Source: Candidatus Zixiibacteriota bacterium (GTDB lineage Bacteria; Desulfobacterota; Binatia; UBA9968). Taken from it: a DNA stretch of 64,000 bases. The notes beneath the pieces were generated by a model. It made no database searches and had not been told where the DNA came from. It saw nothing but the letters and a program-made list of their open reading frames with translations. The stretch covers positions 1 through 64,000 of the forward strand of contig DATLYW010000030.1 of assembly GCA_035574315.1 (NCBI GenBank). Direction: 5' to 3'. Of this stretch, positions 30,729 through 36,052 are shown in pieces (position 1 is the first letter of the stretch; each line of letters starts with the position of its first letter). A program made the position numbers and the translations under genes.

Positions 30729-31031
30729 GTGGCCGACAAGTGGGACGAGCGGAAAAAAGCCAAGGAAGACGAGTACTTCATCAAGAAAGAGCGAGAGCTG
30801 CTCGAAAAGCTGAAACAGAAGCAGGCGCAAACGAAGGCGGAAGCCGACCCGCCAGGCCGGATGCGCTGTCCGAAATGCGGCGAGCGGTTGAAGGAGCGAA
30901 GCTTTCAAAAAATCCTGATCGATCAGTGCTCGGGCTGCGGCGGCATCTGGCTCGATGCCGGAGAGCTGGAGCAGGTGGCCGGTCGCGAGGAAGAGAGTTG
31001 GCTGGGCAAGTTCTGGAAAAGGAGTCGGTGA
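30729..31031 (+). CDS. small zinc-ribbon protein (zf-TFIIB family)
   Basis: Protein of 100 residues. The first ~40 are a charged helix (WDERKKAKEDEYFIKKEREL then LEKLKQKQ). Then a zinc ribbon follows with RCPKCGERL and CSGCGGIWLDAGELEQV, the consensus of the zf-TFIIB family (PF13453). The GTG at 30729 has GAGGAGG at ideal spacing. The function of the family is unknown; the ribbon may bind nucleic acid or protein. It lies 32 bases before the exported methyltransferase homologue. Confidence 0.85.
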   Translation: MADKWDERKKAKEDEYFIKKERELLEKLKQKQAQTKAEADPPGRMRCPKCGERLKERSFQKILIDQCSGCGGIWLDAGELEQVAGREEESWLGKFWKRSR

Positions 31032-31062
31032 TCCGCCCGAGCGCGGCGAGGAGGCTGCAAAG

Positions 31063-31668
31063 ATGAACCGCTTTTACCGTCTTGTATCCGCCGGGGTGCT
31101 GGGTCTTTTCCTGGCCGGGAGCTTCGCTCTCACGGCCACATTGCCGGTACGCGCTCAGAGCGGGGATCAGGAAGGAAAAATCGTCCCTTACGTCCCCACT
31201 CCTCAAGAAGTCGTCGAGCGCATGCTGGAGCTGGCGGGAGTCAAGAAGGGCGACGTGGTTTACGATCTCGGGTCGGGCGACGGCAGGATCGTGGTCACCG
31301 CGGCCAAGAAATACGGGGTGAGAGCGGTCGGCTTCGAGATCGACCCGGAACGGATCAAGGAGTCGCAGGAGAACATCAGGAAGGCGGGGGTCGGTCATCT
31401 CGTCGAGATCCGCCGGCAGGACATCAGGACCGTCGACCTTTCGCAGGCCTCGGTGTTGACGATGTATCTGCTGCCCGAAGTGAACCTGATGATCCGGCCC
31501 AACATCTGGAAGCAGATGAAGCCCGGGTCGCGCGTGGTGTCGCACGACTTCGACATGGGGGACTGGAAGCCGCTGAAGACGGAGCACATCAAGGACCGAT
31601 CGGGTTGGGACCACACGCTCTATCTCTGGCATGTCGCGGAGAGTGACAAAACGCGCGACCCCCGCTAG
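31063..31668 (+). CDS. SAM-dependent methyltransferase homologue with a signal peptide
   Basis: Protein of 201 residues. Residues ~1-32 form a classical signal peptide (RLVSAGVLGLFLAGSFALTA, cleavage near VRAQS). The rest is a class I methyltransferase domain: motif I VVYDLGSGDGRIVVTAAKKY, the acidic residue in VGFEIDPERI, and a post-motif with SVLTMYLLPEVN. Export is odd because S-adenosylmethionine is cytoplasmic. The mature part may be membrane-tethered, or bind another ligand. The start at 31063 has GGAGG upstream and is the only one giving the signal peptide directly. It lies between the zinc-ribbon gene and cstA. Confidence 0.85.
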   Translation: MNRFYRLVSAGVLGLFLAGSFALTATLPVRAQSGDQEGKIVPYVPTPQEVVERMLELAGVKKGDVVYDLGSGDGRIVVTAAKKYGVRAVGFEIDPERIKESQENIRKAGVGHLVEIRRQDIRTVDLSQASVLTMYLLPEVNLMIRPNIWKQMKPGSRVVSHDFDMGDWKPLKTEHIKDRSGWDHTLYLWHVAESDKTRDPR

Positions 31669-31704
31669 CGGCCCGTTCGCCGTTTGCGGCTCGAGGAAAC
31701 GATC

Positions 31705-33498
31705 ATGAATGCGCTGATCGCGGTCGTTTTGGGGATCCTGACGGTCTACCTTACCTATACCCGGTACGCCCGCCGGATCGACCGCAACGTGATCCGCTCC
31801 GATCCGAAGAGGGCCACGCCGGCGGTCCTCTACATGGACGGAGTCGACTTCATGCCGACCAACCGTAACATCCTGTTCGGGTACCACTTCAAGTCGATCG
31901 CGGCGGCGGGGCCGATCGTCGGGGCGATCGTGGCGGCGACGCTGTGGGGCTGGCTGCCGGCGATGGTGTGGTTGATCCTGGGTGTGGCGTTCATGGGCTG
32001 GGTGAGCGATTACAGCGCGATCGTGCTCTCGGTCCGCAACGAAGGCCACAGCCTCTCCGCCGTGGCCCATCGGCTGATCTCGCCGCGCACGCGCACGGTG
32101 CTTTTCCTGTTCATCTTTTTCTATCTGCTGCTGGTGGCGGGGGCTTTCGTCGGGATCATGGCGGCGGTCATGGAGTCGCAGCCGCGCACGCATCTCGGAA
32201 TGATCCTGCTCGTGGCGATGGGGCTGTTGCTGGGGCAGATGCTCTACCGCTGGAGGGTGGGCTTGTTGCCCGCGACGCTCGTGACGGTGGGGGTGACGCT
32301 GCTGGCGATCCTGACCGGCCAGTACAGCGAGGGGGCGTTTCGAGGTCTGAACGAAGGACTCAACGCGCTTACCGGCGGGGCGCCCCTGGTGACCTACTTC
32401 GATCCGATGCGGGCCGGTTTCAAGGGAGGGGAGGCCGCCATCAAGCCGAGCCTGCTGTTCTGGGCCCTCGCGATCTCCGCCTTCTGCTATGCCGGATCGA
32501 TCCTGCCCATCTGGCGGCTGGCGCAGCCGGTCGTGTACGTGGGCTTCTGGATCACGGCGATGGCGATGCTGCTCGGGCTCGGCGGCGCCGCCGTGGGGAC
32601 CTTCACCCGGCCGGAGGCCGCCTACTTTGCCATTCCCGCGTTCAAGGGCTGGAGCCCGCAGCTGGGACCCGCCGGCGTGATGCCGCTCTGGCCGATGCTG
32701 TTCGTGACGATCGCTTGCGGCGCGATCTCGGGGTGGCATGCTCTGTTCGGCACGGTCGGCACGGCGCGGCAGATCGAGAACGAGGCGGACATGCTCCCGG
32801 TGGGCGCCGGCTCTATGCTGGCCGAGTTTCTCCTGGGTCTGCTGGCGCTCCTCGCCGTATCGGTGGGCTCCAAGGGGTCGCCGGACGCCGCTTTCGCCGA
32901 CGGGCTCGGGGGGTTCATCAGCGTCTGGGGCGTGCCGCGCGATTACGCGGTCTCGCTCGCCTTTGCGGCCTTCATCGTCATCGTGCTGGTGGTGACGCAG
33001 CTCCTGTTCCGGGTGATGCGCGTGACGCTCACGGAGTGGCTCGGGGAGATCCTGCCGCCGCTGCGCAACCAGCACGTCGCCTCGCTGCTGTCGATCGCGC
33101 TCGCCATCGTGCTCGTGCTGACGGGGACCTGGATCTACCTATGGCAGCTCTTCGGTGCGGCCAATCAGCTGATGGCGGCGCTCTCGCTCCTGCTCGTGAC
33201 CGTATGGCTGGTTTCGGTCGGCAAGCAATGGCTGTACGCCGGGCTGCCGATGATCGCGATGTACGTGACCACGGTCGCCTCGATCGGGGTGACGGCGTAC
33301 AACCTCTATTTCAACGTCTACCGGCCGAACATGGAGGCGGGGCGGGCGTTGCCGGCCGTCGGGTCGGGCCTGATGATCGTGGTGGCCGTGTTGCTGATAG
33401 CGGCGGCGCTGCTGATCGGCTTGGACGGCGCCAGAGCCTTCGTGCGCCACTTCAAGAGGCCGGCGCCTTCGGCCGAACCCGTGGCGGCGAGGTCGTGA
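31705..33498 (+). CDS. cstA: carbon starvation protein A (CstA) family transporter
   Basis: Polytopic inner-membrane transporter of 597 residues. CstA/BtsT proteins take up pyruvate or peptides during nutrient stress. The family signature near the N-terminus reads GVDFMPTNRNILFGYHFKSI then AAAGPIVGAIVAATLWGW; about 15 more hydrophobic segments follow, ending with a basic tail. ATG at 31705 has GAGGAAA upstream; an in-frame ATG 21 bases before has no ribosome site. The enterobacterial YbdD/YjiX partner is absent; two unrelated small proteins follow instead, spaced by 14 and 19 bases, then two ArsA-like ATPases. Confidence 0.93.
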   Translation: MNALIAVVLGILTVYLTYTRYARRIDRNVIRSDPKRATPAVLYMDGVDFMPTNRNILFGYHFKSIAAAGPIVGAIVAATLWGWLPAMVWLILGVAFMGWVSDYSAIVLSVRNEGHSLSAVAHRLISPRTRTVLFLFIFFYLLLVAGAFVGIMAAVMESQPRTHLGMILLVAMGLLLGQMLYRWRVGLLPATLVTVGVTLLAILTGQYSEGAFRGLNEGLNALTGGAPLVTYFDPMRAGFKGGEAAIKPSLLFWALAISAFCYAGSILPIWRLAQPVVYVGFWITAMAMLLGLGGAAVGTFTRPEAAYFAIPAFKGWSPQLGPAGVMPLWPMLFVTIACGAISGWHALFGTVGTARQIENEADMLPVGAGSMLAEFLLGLLALLAVSVGSKGSPDAAFADGLGGFISVWGVPRDYAVSLAFAAFIVIVLVVTQLLFRVMRVTLTEWLGEILPPLRNQHVASLLSIALAIVLVLTGTWIYLWQLFGAANQLMAALSLLLVTVWLVSVGKQWLYAGLPMIAMYVTTVASIGVTAYNLYFNVYRPNMEAGRALPAVGSGLMIVVAVLLIAAALLIGLDGARAFVRHFKRPAPSAEPVAARS

Positions 33499-33512: not shown

Positions 33513-33803
33513 ATGGCGGACGGAAAACGGAAGGACGCGGAGCGCTGGCGGGGGCTCAAGGATTTCGTGTACGGCCTTTGCGGCTACGAGTTCGCGCGGC
33601 ACGCGCTGCGCATGAAGCACGACGCGGAATCCGTGTTCTTCGTTCTCACCGTGGGAGACTGGATCGGCCTGCCGGTGGTGCCACCGGTCTATTCGCTGCG
33701 CCTGCTGCCCTACATCGTCCCGAGGATCGCCGTCTGGAAGCGGCAGATGGCGCGCCCGACGGAGTTCTGGGAGCGGGACGAATACGATCTACACGGCGTT
33801 TAG
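33513..33803 (+). CDS. small hydrophobic protein A of unknown family (paralogue of the next gene)
   Basis: Protein of 96 residues. Residues 1-35 are polar (KDFVYGLCGYEFARHALRMK). A hydrophobic segment (SVFFVLTVGDWIGLPVVPPV) and YSLRLLPYIVPRIAVWKR follow, then an acidic tail (WERDEYDLHGV). Alignment with the next gene shows the shared frame LKD-VYG-x4-E-x2-RHA-R, GD-x2-G-P-x2-PP-YSLRLLPY-x2-P-x-I-x2-WKR-x-M. It has a central membrane segment and a short C-terminal tail and could be a membrane partner or client of the ATPases downstream. No known family recognised. Confidence 0.8.
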   Translation: MADGKRKDAERWRGLKDFVYGLCGYEFARHALRMKHDAESVFFVLTVGDWIGLPVVPPVYSLRLLPYIVPRIAVWKRQMARPTEFWERDEYDLHGV

Positions 33804-33822: not shown

Positions 33823-34092
33823 ATGCCCGAGCACGAGAAGAAGGGCGGTTTTTTTCAGGCGCTCAAGGACATCGTTTACGGAATGTCCTCGCACGAGATG
33901 ACCCGGCATGCGGTGCGCAGCCGGGCGAGCATGGAACATCTCTTCATCCTCATCACCATGGGGGATCTGCTCGGCGTGCCGATCCTCCCGCCCTATTATT
34001 CGCTGCGCTTGCTTCCGTACGTGACGCCGCAGATCAGCACCTGGAAGCGGCGCATGCTCAGGGAGCGGGACATCACCGACACCCTCGGATAG
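33823..34092 (+). CDS. small hydrophobic protein B of unknown family (paralogue of the previous gene)
   Basis: Protein of 89 residues, clearly homologous to the preceding gene: KDIVYGMSSHEMTRHAVRSR, then the hydrophobic LFILITMGDLLGVPILPPYY and SLRLLPYVTPQISTWKRRML. The N-terminus is charged (MPEHEKKGGFF) and the C-terminal tail is short (RERDITDTLG). The duplicated pair sits directly before two paralogous ATPases, so the operon has a two-plus-two structure. GGAGGCGG precedes the ATG at 33823. I do not know this family; it shows no enzymatic motif. Confidence 0.8.
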   Translation: MPEHEKKGGFFQALKDIVYGMSSHEMTRHAVRSRASMEHLFILITMGDLLGVPILPPYYSLRLLPYVTPQISTWKRRMLRERDITDTLG

Positions 34093-34100
34093 CGGCGTTT

Positions 34101-35081
34101 ATGTCCCTTCGCGACCTGTTCACGCGCCATCCCGAGCGCCGCTACATCATGTTCGGCGGAAAAGGCGGGTTGGGGAAGACCACGCTGTCGGCCGCATGCG
34201 CCTACTGGCTGGCGCGCCAGGGCAAACGGGTGCTCGTGTTCTCGGTGGATCCGCAGGCGAGCCTCTCGGACATCTTTCAGCGGGACATCTTCGGCCAGGG
34301 CCCGGTGCGGATCATGGAGAACCTCTGGGCGCAGGAGGTCGACGCCGACAAGCGCATCCAGGCCTATCAGGACGAGATCCGGCAGAAGATCCTCGACATG
34401 TACGGCTTCGAGCGGGTGCCCGAAGAGATCGACAGCTACATCGCGTCGGCGTCGGCGGAGCCGGCGATGGAGGAGAGCGCGATTTTCGACGCGGTGGTCG
34501 ACATCATCGTTGAGGGCGATTACGACTACTACATCTACGATCTCGTTCCCCTGGGACACGCGCTCTATTACCTCTCGATGGCGAAGGTCTACGACGAGTG
34601 GATCAACAAGATCACCAAGCTACGGGAGGAGATGGGCGAGTACGACCGGGTGGCCGCGACGCTTCGGCGCCAGGAAACCTCCGAGGAGGATCGGGTTCTC
34701 GCCGAGCTCCGCTATATCAAAGGGCGGATCAACGTCTCGTCGAGCATCCTCACGGACCGGGAGCGGACCGCGTTCTTCTTCGTGCTGGTGCCCGAGGAGA
34801 TGATCATCCTGGACACGCGCAAGGCCGCGGAGCTGTTCGCGCGCTTCGACGTGCCGATCGCCGGATACATCGTGAACCGCGTTCTACCTCCCCATCTGCG
34901 TGACGGGAAGATTCCCGCCTATCTCAGGAACCGCATCGAGCTGCAGGAAAAGTATCTCGGAGAGATCCGCTCGACCCTGGGGAAGCAGATTCTCGCCTAC
35001 GTTCCCGAGATGGAACGGGACATCGCGGGACTGCCGATGATCGAGCGGCTGGCGGAGCGGCTTTTCGAGGCGGGGAAGTGA
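34101..35081 (+). CDS. ArsA/Get3-type ATPase 1 (switch I Asp kept, switch II altered)
   Basis: Protein of 326 residues of the SIMIBI ArsA/Get3 branch. The deviant Walker A is MFGGKGGLGKTTLSAA (Lys21 and Lys26). Switch I reads VFSVDPQASLSDIF with the catalytic Asp at position 50, equivalent to Asp57 of yeast Get3. Switch II, usually D-T-A-P-T-G-H, is here YDLVPLGHALYYL (Asp147). The Cys-x2-Cys zinc motif of eukaryotic Get3 and the Cys triad of arsenite ArsA are absent, so arsenite extrusion is unlikely. The stop overlaps the GTG of the second ATPase. A role in handling hydrophobic segments, such as the two small proteins upstream, is inference. Confidence 0.88.
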   Translation: MSLRDLFTRHPERRYIMFGGKGGLGKTTLSAACAYWLARQGKRVLVFSVDPQASLSDIFQRDIFGQGPVRIMENLWAQEVDADKRIQAYQDEIRQKILDMYGFERVPEEIDSYIASASAEPAMEESAIFDAVVDIIVEGDYDYYIYDLVPLGHALYYLSMAKVYDEWINKITKLREEMGEYDRVAATLRRQETSEEDRVLAELRYIKGRINVSSSILTDRERTAFFFVLVPEEMIILDTRKAAELFARFDVPIAGYIVNRVLPPHLRDGKIPAYLRNRIELQEKYLGEIRSTLGKQILAYVPEMERDIAGLPMIERLAERLFEAGK

Positions 35082-36052
35082 ATCCGATCACGGTATCGAT
35101 GTCCGACTACGTCCGCGCCCACCCCGGGCTCAAGTACGTGTTTTTCGGAGGCAAGGGCGGCGTCGGCAAGACCTCGCTCGCCGGGTCGGCGGCGCTCTGG
35201 CTCGCGCGGCAGGGGAGGCGGACGCTGCTCGCCTCGACCAATCCCGTCCACAGCCTGTCCGGGCTGCTCGACCGGCCCGTCTTCGGTGCCCCCACCGCGG
35301 TGGCGGACAACTTCTGGGCCTACGAGATCGACACCCGGGAGACCATCGAGCGGTCGAAAAAGGAGATCCGGGAAAAGATCCAGTGGTTCCTCAAGTTCGC
35401 CGACATCAGCGTCAAGGCGGACGAGTTCGTGGAATCCGCGACGATGAACCCCGCCTTCGAGGAATCCGCCATGTTCGAGAACATGGTGGACCTGATGCTG
35501 AAGGACGACTACGACGTCTACGTCTTCGACACCGCGCCCACCGCCAACGCGCGCCGACTCCTCGGCATGTCGAAGGTCTACTCGCTCTGGGTCGACAAGA
35601 TGCTGAAGTCGAGGGAGGAGGCTCGCACGCTGCGCGAGATGCTGTCGTTCAGCAAGAAGAAGGAAGAAGATCCGCTCATGAGCTATCTGCTGCGGTTCCG
35701 CGACCGGATGGCGCAGGCGCGGGAGCGTCTCGCCGATCCGCAGAAGACCGCGTTCTTCTTCGTCACGCTCGCCGAGGCGCTGCCGATCGCCGTGATCTCC
35801 AGGTTTATCGGATGGTTTCGGGATTTCGGGATCCCGGTCGGCGGCGTGATCGTCAACATGCTGCTCGACCGCAGCGCCCTCGGCGACGACGTTCCTGAGT
35901 TCGTCCTCAATCGCGTCCAGATGCAGGAAGACTACCTCGCAACCATCTGGCGGAAGTTCGACGGCGAGGTGCGCGCGGTGCTCCCGCTCTTCGATCGAGA
36001 GCTCCGCGGCATCGCGATGCTCGACGAAGCGGCCCGCCGGTTGATGGCCTGA
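35078..36052 (+). CDS. ArsA/Get3-type ATPase 2 with Asp-to-Asn change at the catalytic switch I position
   Basis: Protein of 324 residues, paralogous to the gene before it. Walker A is FFGGKGGVGKTSLAGS (Lys26, Lys31). Switch I reads LLASTNPVHSLSGLL: codon AAT at 35240-35242 gives Asn55 where Get3/ArsA have the catalytic Asp (STDPAH). The same substitution in yeast Get3 (D57N) is the well-known hydrolysis-deficient form. Switch II is almost canonical (FDTAPTANARRLL, Asp151). No CxxC zinc motif. It starts with GTG in GTGA overlap with gene 1; an ATG 21 bases on is possible. The two paralogues have complementary changes, suggesting a heterodimer with one hydrolytic site. Confidence 0.88.
   Translation: MNPITVSMSDYVRAHPGLKYVFFGGKGGVGKTSLAGSAALWLARQGRRTLLASTNPVHSLSGLLDRPVFGAPTAVADNFWAYEIDTRETIERSKKEIREKIQWFLKFADISVKADEFVESATMNPAFEESAMFENMVDLMLKDDYDVYVFDTAPTANARRLLGMSKVYSLWVDKMLKSREEARTLREMLSFSKKKEEDPLMSYLLRFRDRMAQARERLADPQKTAFFFVTLAEALPIAVISRFIGWFRDFGIPVGGVIVNMLLDRSALGDDVPEFVLNRVQMQEDYLATIWRKFDGEVRAVLPLFDRELRGIAMLDEAARRLMA

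Follow-up and report, generated by a model that had tools for sequence, protein, structure and literature searches.

Adjacent Get3/ArsA-type ATPases with complementary active-site changes form a conserved pair in cstA operons

Two overlapping genes, A and B, in the window (the whole stretch of 64,000 nucleotides that was analysed) encode paralogous ATPases of the ArsA/Get3 family that differ in their active sites: the catalytic switch-I Asp, a residue typical of active members and dispensable for family membership, is kept in A and absent from B, where Asn is found instead, and switch II is altered in a different way in each protein. The pair lies at the end of an operon with the gene order cstA, S1, S2, A, B, i.e. 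behind a transporter gene and two genes for small CstX-like proteins. We consider it moderately probable that A and B form an obligate heterodimer with unequal ATP sites, hydrolytic in A and degenerate in B, which drives or gates CstA through CstX. The genes and motifs concerned are as follows:

31684..33498, + strand: cstA, carbon-starvation protein A family transporter (PF02554, 1.2e-102; start codon uncertain)
33513..33803, + strand: S1, first CstX/cory-CC-star-like protein, ~96 aa (NF041419, 1.2e-6, below the curated cut-off)
33823..34092, + strand: S2, second CstX/cory-CC-star-like protein, 89 aa (NF041419, 5.8e-9, below the curated cut-off)
34101..35081, + strand: A, ArsA/Get3-family ATPase, predicted hydrolysis-competent subunit, 326 aa, ATG start
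34155..34181, + strand: deviant Walker A motif of A, GGKGGLGKT, with the trans-acting signature Lys21 (invariant in the 84-85 sequences reaching the motif)
34248..34250, + strand: Asp50 of A (FSVDPQAS), equivalent of the catalytic Asp57 of yeast Get3 (86/86; 105/105 distinct sequences)
34539..34559, + strand: switch II of A, DLVPLGH, where Get3/ArsA have DTAPTGH (88/89; one DMVPLGH)
35078..36052, + strand: B, ArsA/Get3-family ATPase, predicted degenerate-site subunit, 324 aa, GTG start
35147..35173, + strand: deviant Walker A motif of B, GGKGGVGKT, with signature Lys26 (90/90)
35240..35242, + strand: Asn55 of B (AAT) in LLASTNPVHSL, replacing the catalytic Asp (122/122 distinct B sequences)
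35528..35548, + strand: switch II of B, DTAPTAN, with AN replacing the GH of Get3/ArsA (90/90)

The two reading frames overlap by 4 nt, the GTG start of B lying on the TGA of A ('GTGA'), which suggests translational coupling; an alternative start of B is the in-frame ATG at 35099, with which B would be 7 aa shorter and Asn55 would become Asn48. In Pfam/NCBIfam profile searches A matches PF02374 (4.6e-69, 233 bits) and TIGR00345 (9.2e-67, 226 bits), and so does B (PF02374, 2.4e-64, 218 bits; TIGR00345, 207 bits), all above the curated cut-offs of 24.3 bits for PF02374 and 135 bits for TIGR00345. Together with the KGGxGKT deviant Walker A motif and its signature Lys this places both proteins in the ArsA/Get3 (TRC40) family, and the original prediction of two overlapping paralogous Get3/ArsA-type ATPases holds for reading frames, coordinates and families alike. 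At the catalytic motif A and B align gap-free with Get3 of M. thermautotrophicus and M. jannaschii: where the archaeal proteins have STDPAHS, B has STNPVHS and A has SVDPQAS. The best match of B as modelled by AlphaFold (pLDDT 82) is archaeal Get3 3zq6 (E 1.8e-26, TM 0.74-0.78). When the genome was searched with B at E 1e-3, zero ArsA-family matches were obtained besides A and B. Both genes are under purifying selection (dN ~0.09-0.13 vs dS >1), and the dN/dS of ~0.1 rules out that B is a decaying duplicate.

It had been predicted that B carries Asn55 (AAT, 35240-35242) in place of the catalytic Asp, and both residue and codon are confirmed. Asn is encoded by AAC in 66 and by AAT in 56 of the 122 distinct B sequences, and its occurrence in 122/122 with two synonymous codons rules out chance or a sequencing error. 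Neither Asp nor Glu occurs at this position in any of the 122, so that the B orthologues with mostly Asp, which the original prediction had named as evidence against itself, were not found. These sets (122 B, 105 A) were chosen by the flanking motif, and the strong A or B matches outside them are all fragments that end before the motif. The remaining active-site claims proved correct as well: A retains Asp50 (105/105) and has its switch II altered to DLVPLGH (88/89; surrounding sequence YDLVPLGHALYYL), the switch II of B is near-normal in its DTAPT portion, DTAPTAN being present in 90/90 (surrounding sequence FDTAPTANARRLL), and the zinc CxxC is missing from both proteins, i.e. from all 89 A and 90 B sequences (0/179).

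A genome scan with one genome per species yielded 80 B loci, 67-83% identical, whose records bear the labels Deltaproteobacteria, Rokubacteria, Chloroflexi, Acidobacteria, Actinobacteria, Gemmatimonadetes and others, and A adjoins B in 80/80 of them; whole-genome searches added further loci. Three phyla were sampled with ~250, 200 and 250 genomes; there, B orthologues of full length (at least 500 bits) adjoin A wherever the contig continues, and A without B was not encountered in the genomes examined, assembly gaps and contig ends aside. The single candidate for an A-only genome (G012) was dismissed, an N-run breaking the contig inside A. Thus the two genes, whose frequent separation would have spoken against the original prediction, are never apart where the contig allows a judgement. 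Eight genomes of the same-phylum sample have CstX-like genes, and it is these that have A/B sequences. The correlation between the distance matrices of A and B (r=0.80) speaks for the heterodimer, although plain co-inheritance would produce it too.

Two distant Chloroflexi pairs with only ~45% identity to the window proteins have SLNPVHS in B and STDPQAS in A. In these deepest pairs the switch-II sequences are DMPPFGH (A) and DTAAVAN (B), and the gene order cstA-S-A-B is retained. Since they keep Asp and Gly-His in A and Asn and Ala-Asn in B, this combination is the durable asymmetry of the pair.

Both A and B are monophyletic in a maximum-likelihood tree (100/99 for each), and the two are joined in a single clade A+B (99/96). 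A further clade (99/96) consists of the seven single-copy ATPases from CstA-type operons; its placement near A+B has only moderate support (86/95), and several rows of the tree are long-branched. From the A, B and A+B clades it follows that A and B are sister clades that arose by one ancient duplication, and that the Asp of B was lost thereafter and before the last common ancestor of the sampled pairs. Altogether 48 alignment columns are fixed for different residues in A vs B, including the D/N position and the switch-II set. At the catalytic column Asp is found in Get3, in the CstA-linked single ATPases and in an ars-type ArsA, all of which carry DTAPTGH, and the single-copy relatives that were checked (Cytobacillus, Pseudochrobactrum and actinobacterial-sample genomes with upstream CstA fragments) keep STDPA and DTAPTGH. 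The single-ATPase operons, presumably with a homodimer containing two Asp, would be the closest single-copy counterpart of A-B. Haloarchaeal and ars-operon ArsA proteins on plasmids retain Asp and DTAPTGH and are not orthologues.

The best clue to the function of A and B is provided by cstA and the two cstX-like genes, which the original prediction had missed. Where the sequence preceding B extends for at least 5.5 kb (47 loci), CstX-like genes are present in 47/47, with two or more in 42/47; cstA is found in 42/47 and missing within ~5.5 kb upstream of B in 5/47. S2 has a very strongly conserved core, MEHLFILITMGDLLGVPILPPYYSLRLLPYV, with a mean column identity of 76% in the alignment. The two small proteins are weak yet significant matches to cory-CC-star (NF041419), with scores of 35.8 and 28.4 bits vs a cut-off of 80 bits, and the C-terminal CC is missing; they are related to cory-CC-star but lie outside the equivalog. 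Synteny with annotated plasmid genes, in the order cstA, one hypothetical gene, cory-CC-star and a single ArsA in Cytobacillus and cstA, cory-CC-star and a single ArsA in Pseudochrobactrum, assigns them to this family in the wider sense. Very probably S1 and S2 are also the CstX of Castillo and Saier, an equation based on size, position and operon content, so that cstA, cstX and an arsA homologue are united in one operon, as in the CstA-CstX-ArsA system. The CstX-like proteins contain one borderline hydrophobic stretch in the middle of the protein (Kyte-Doolittle 1.6-1.7 over 19 residues), which is weaker in the cory-CC-star relatives. The predicted structure of S2 is of low confidence (pLDDT 56) and was not used for inference, and a search of plasmids with S2 gave zero matches.

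Several further genes accompany these operons. A third CstX-like gene directly follows B in many Chloroflexi loci (e.g. L012:7012-7266, L018:6988-7296, L024:6976-7239), and the deepest pairs have a second, diverged CstX-like gene downstream on the opposite strand (L203:13239-13589 (-), L204:13770-14084 (-)). In 35 loci a CHHC (CxxC) protein of ~150 aa is encoded upstream of cstA, e.g. L016:1785-2243 (+); it is thioredoxin-like by eye, its match to Pfam DUF1525 is sub-threshold, and none was seen beside the window operon. Upstream of cstA the window encodes a SAM-dependent methyltransferase-like protein (30955-31668), of which an upstream family member is found in six of the closest loci only. 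A role in arsenic resistance was rejected: the neighbouring genes that were examined include zero ars genes, and CstA is reported never to share an operon with ars genes (PMC2963123).

The obligate heterodimer put forward in the original prediction is well motivated because B never has the Asp and is never found without A. Both sites should be able to bind ATP, since the P-loops and signature lysines are invariant. The A site would hydrolyse ATP, using Asp50 and, in trans, the signature lysine of B, while the B site would bind ATP, hydrolyse little or none of it and serve as a structural or regulatory site that keeps the dimer closed. Through the small CstX-like proteins the cycle at the A site may then be relayed to CstA, and the transporter would be energised or, as likely, gated or regulated by A-B. 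Heterodimerisation, the ATPase activities and the coupling to CstA are what we infer here, the coupling at the membrane from the operon. A could also be slow because its switch II has lost both Thr, which makes its own ATPase activity uncertain. E. coli CstA works without ArsA, and we know of no experiment showing any ArsA homologue energising a CstA. That CstA is energised by ArsA homologues, with CstX linking the two, was proposed by Castillo & Saier (2010, PMC2963123), and E. coli CstA is described as a pyruvate importer in PMC5847655.

How far the Asn of B determines its activity may be judged from related proteins. In yeast Get3, Asp57 is called essential for hydrolysis, and in the D57N variant ATP stays bound and unhydrolysed and the dimer remains closed (PMC12506534). 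By analogy, ATP may be permanently trapped in one half of A-B and hydrolysed in the other, as originally suggested. Activity is not necessarily abolished when the Asp is changed, as Nostoc Get3d, with Glu at the catalytic position, retains a lowered ATPase (PMC10248533). On the strength of that example both sites of A-B might hydrolyse, with catalysis in B by Asn or another residue and the differences merely tuning the rate, but the behaviour of Get3 D57N and the fact that B never has Asp or Glu at this position make this very improbable. Only slightly better are the prospects of B being a catalytically dead regulator, i.e. a pseudoenzyme co-expressed with an A homodimer that forms no obligate heterodimer: the Asp loss is fixed in B and A still has its P-loop, signature Lys and Asp, but A without B was never found, assembly gaps and contig ends aside, the invariant P-loop and signature Lys of B would be unexpected in a regulator without nucleotide binding, and switch II is changed as strongly in A as in B.

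Alternatively, A-B might be a Get3-like targeting factor that delivers the CstX-like proteins or CstA to the membrane, with the Asn subunit keeping the client in an ATP-locked state. The nearest solved fold is indeed archaeal Get3, the genes for CstX-like proteins with their borderline hydrophobic stretch adjoin the ATPase genes, and Asp mutants of Get3/TRC40 trap clients, TRC40 D74N being presumed ATPase-deficient and acting as a client trap (PMC6633398). A and B nevertheless lack the marks of the tail-anchor targeting proteins, the insert being weakly hydrophobic and CxxC occurring in 0/179 sequences. Tail-anchor targeting is less likely because little is left of the hydrophobic insert with which Get3 binds tail anchors: per 21 residues it contains 3-4 large hydrophobic residues in A/B vs 7-8 in archaeal Get3. 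Moreover, the hydrophobic stretch of CstX sits in the middle of the protein instead of at its C-terminal end, and the cory-CC-star relatives have a weaker one. We therefore consider a targeting factor unlikely, if the least so of the three alternatives, and favour the A-B heterodimer.

If the two sites are truly unequal, the heterodimer would be a natural counterpart to the D57N trap engineered in Get3, and one that selection has maintained from a time before the sampled pairs last shared an ancestor. The pair offers a direct handle on the division of work between the ATP sites of Get3/ArsA proteins, which is hard to study in homodimers, and makes it possible to test the old proposal that CstA transporters are powered or controlled by ArsA homologues. 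For annotators it is a reason to drop the label 'arsenic pump ATPase' for proteins of the A/B type.

One of the closest known systems is the CstA-CstX-ArsA operon of Castillo & Saier (2010, PMC2963123), which combines the identical three gene families. That study already contained the operon type, adjacent ArsA pairs in two cases (cluster 15; Pyrobaculum arsenaticum and Symbiobacterium thermophilum) and the D-to-N variation, the SXD motif of single-domain ArsA proteins varying to N only, with homodimers being suggested; the genome abbreviated Par has two CstX, as in the window (PMC2963123). Castillo & Saier did not report that N is confined to one member of the pair or that switch II of its partner is altered. 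What appears to be new is the fixation of the D/N split between the partners of every sampled pair, with opposite switch-II changes and in many phyla.

Unequal Get3-fold pairs exist elsewhere. Rv3679/Rv3680 (BagA/BagB) of M. tuberculosis are, like A/B, two Get3-fold ATPases, found in common structure entries (PDB 6bs3-6bs5), and their sites are unequal, but by other residues: Rv3680 lacks the signature Lys (GAGGVGKT) and Rv3679 has EVEG around the Asp position. Against the BagA/BagB profiles A scores 54.9 and 37.2 bits and B 49 and 29.4 bits vs cut-offs of 400 and 521, i.e. the two pairs are distant relatives only, and we know of no link of BagA/BagB to CstA/CstX. Adjacent pairs resembling BagA/BagB were seen in genomes of the same class (L095, L104, L106, L107, L108) as another, independent kind of unequal Get3-fold pair, the first gene keeping GKGG, with EVD/EMD/EVE/ELE in switch I, and the second having GSGG for GKGG, and TIDPA.

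With Get3/TRC40, A/B share fold, P-loop and signature Lys (the model of B has a TM of 0.74-0.78 to archaeal Get3); unlike A/B, Get3 forms a homodimer in which each half has the Asp, and it possesses a hydrophobic tail-anchor insert and, in most cases, CxxC. ArsA and the split ArsA pairs of ars operons resemble A/B in joining two ATPase halves with a membrane transporter, but the ars-type pair L216 has Asp and DTAPTGH in both halves. The original contrast with homodimeric Get3 and fused ArsA was too narrow, as Rv3679/Rv3680 exist and ars operons can hold two single-domain ArsA. In heterodimeric ABC exporters with a degenerate site, one site is hydrolytic and the other holds ATP. The logic is analogous, but the ATPase class is unrelated, A/B being SIMIBI proteins. 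Tentatively, A-B may be imagined as the SIMIBI counterpart of these exporters, i.e. as a widespread motor that is docked via a CstX-type pair and whose ATP drives or gates CstA.
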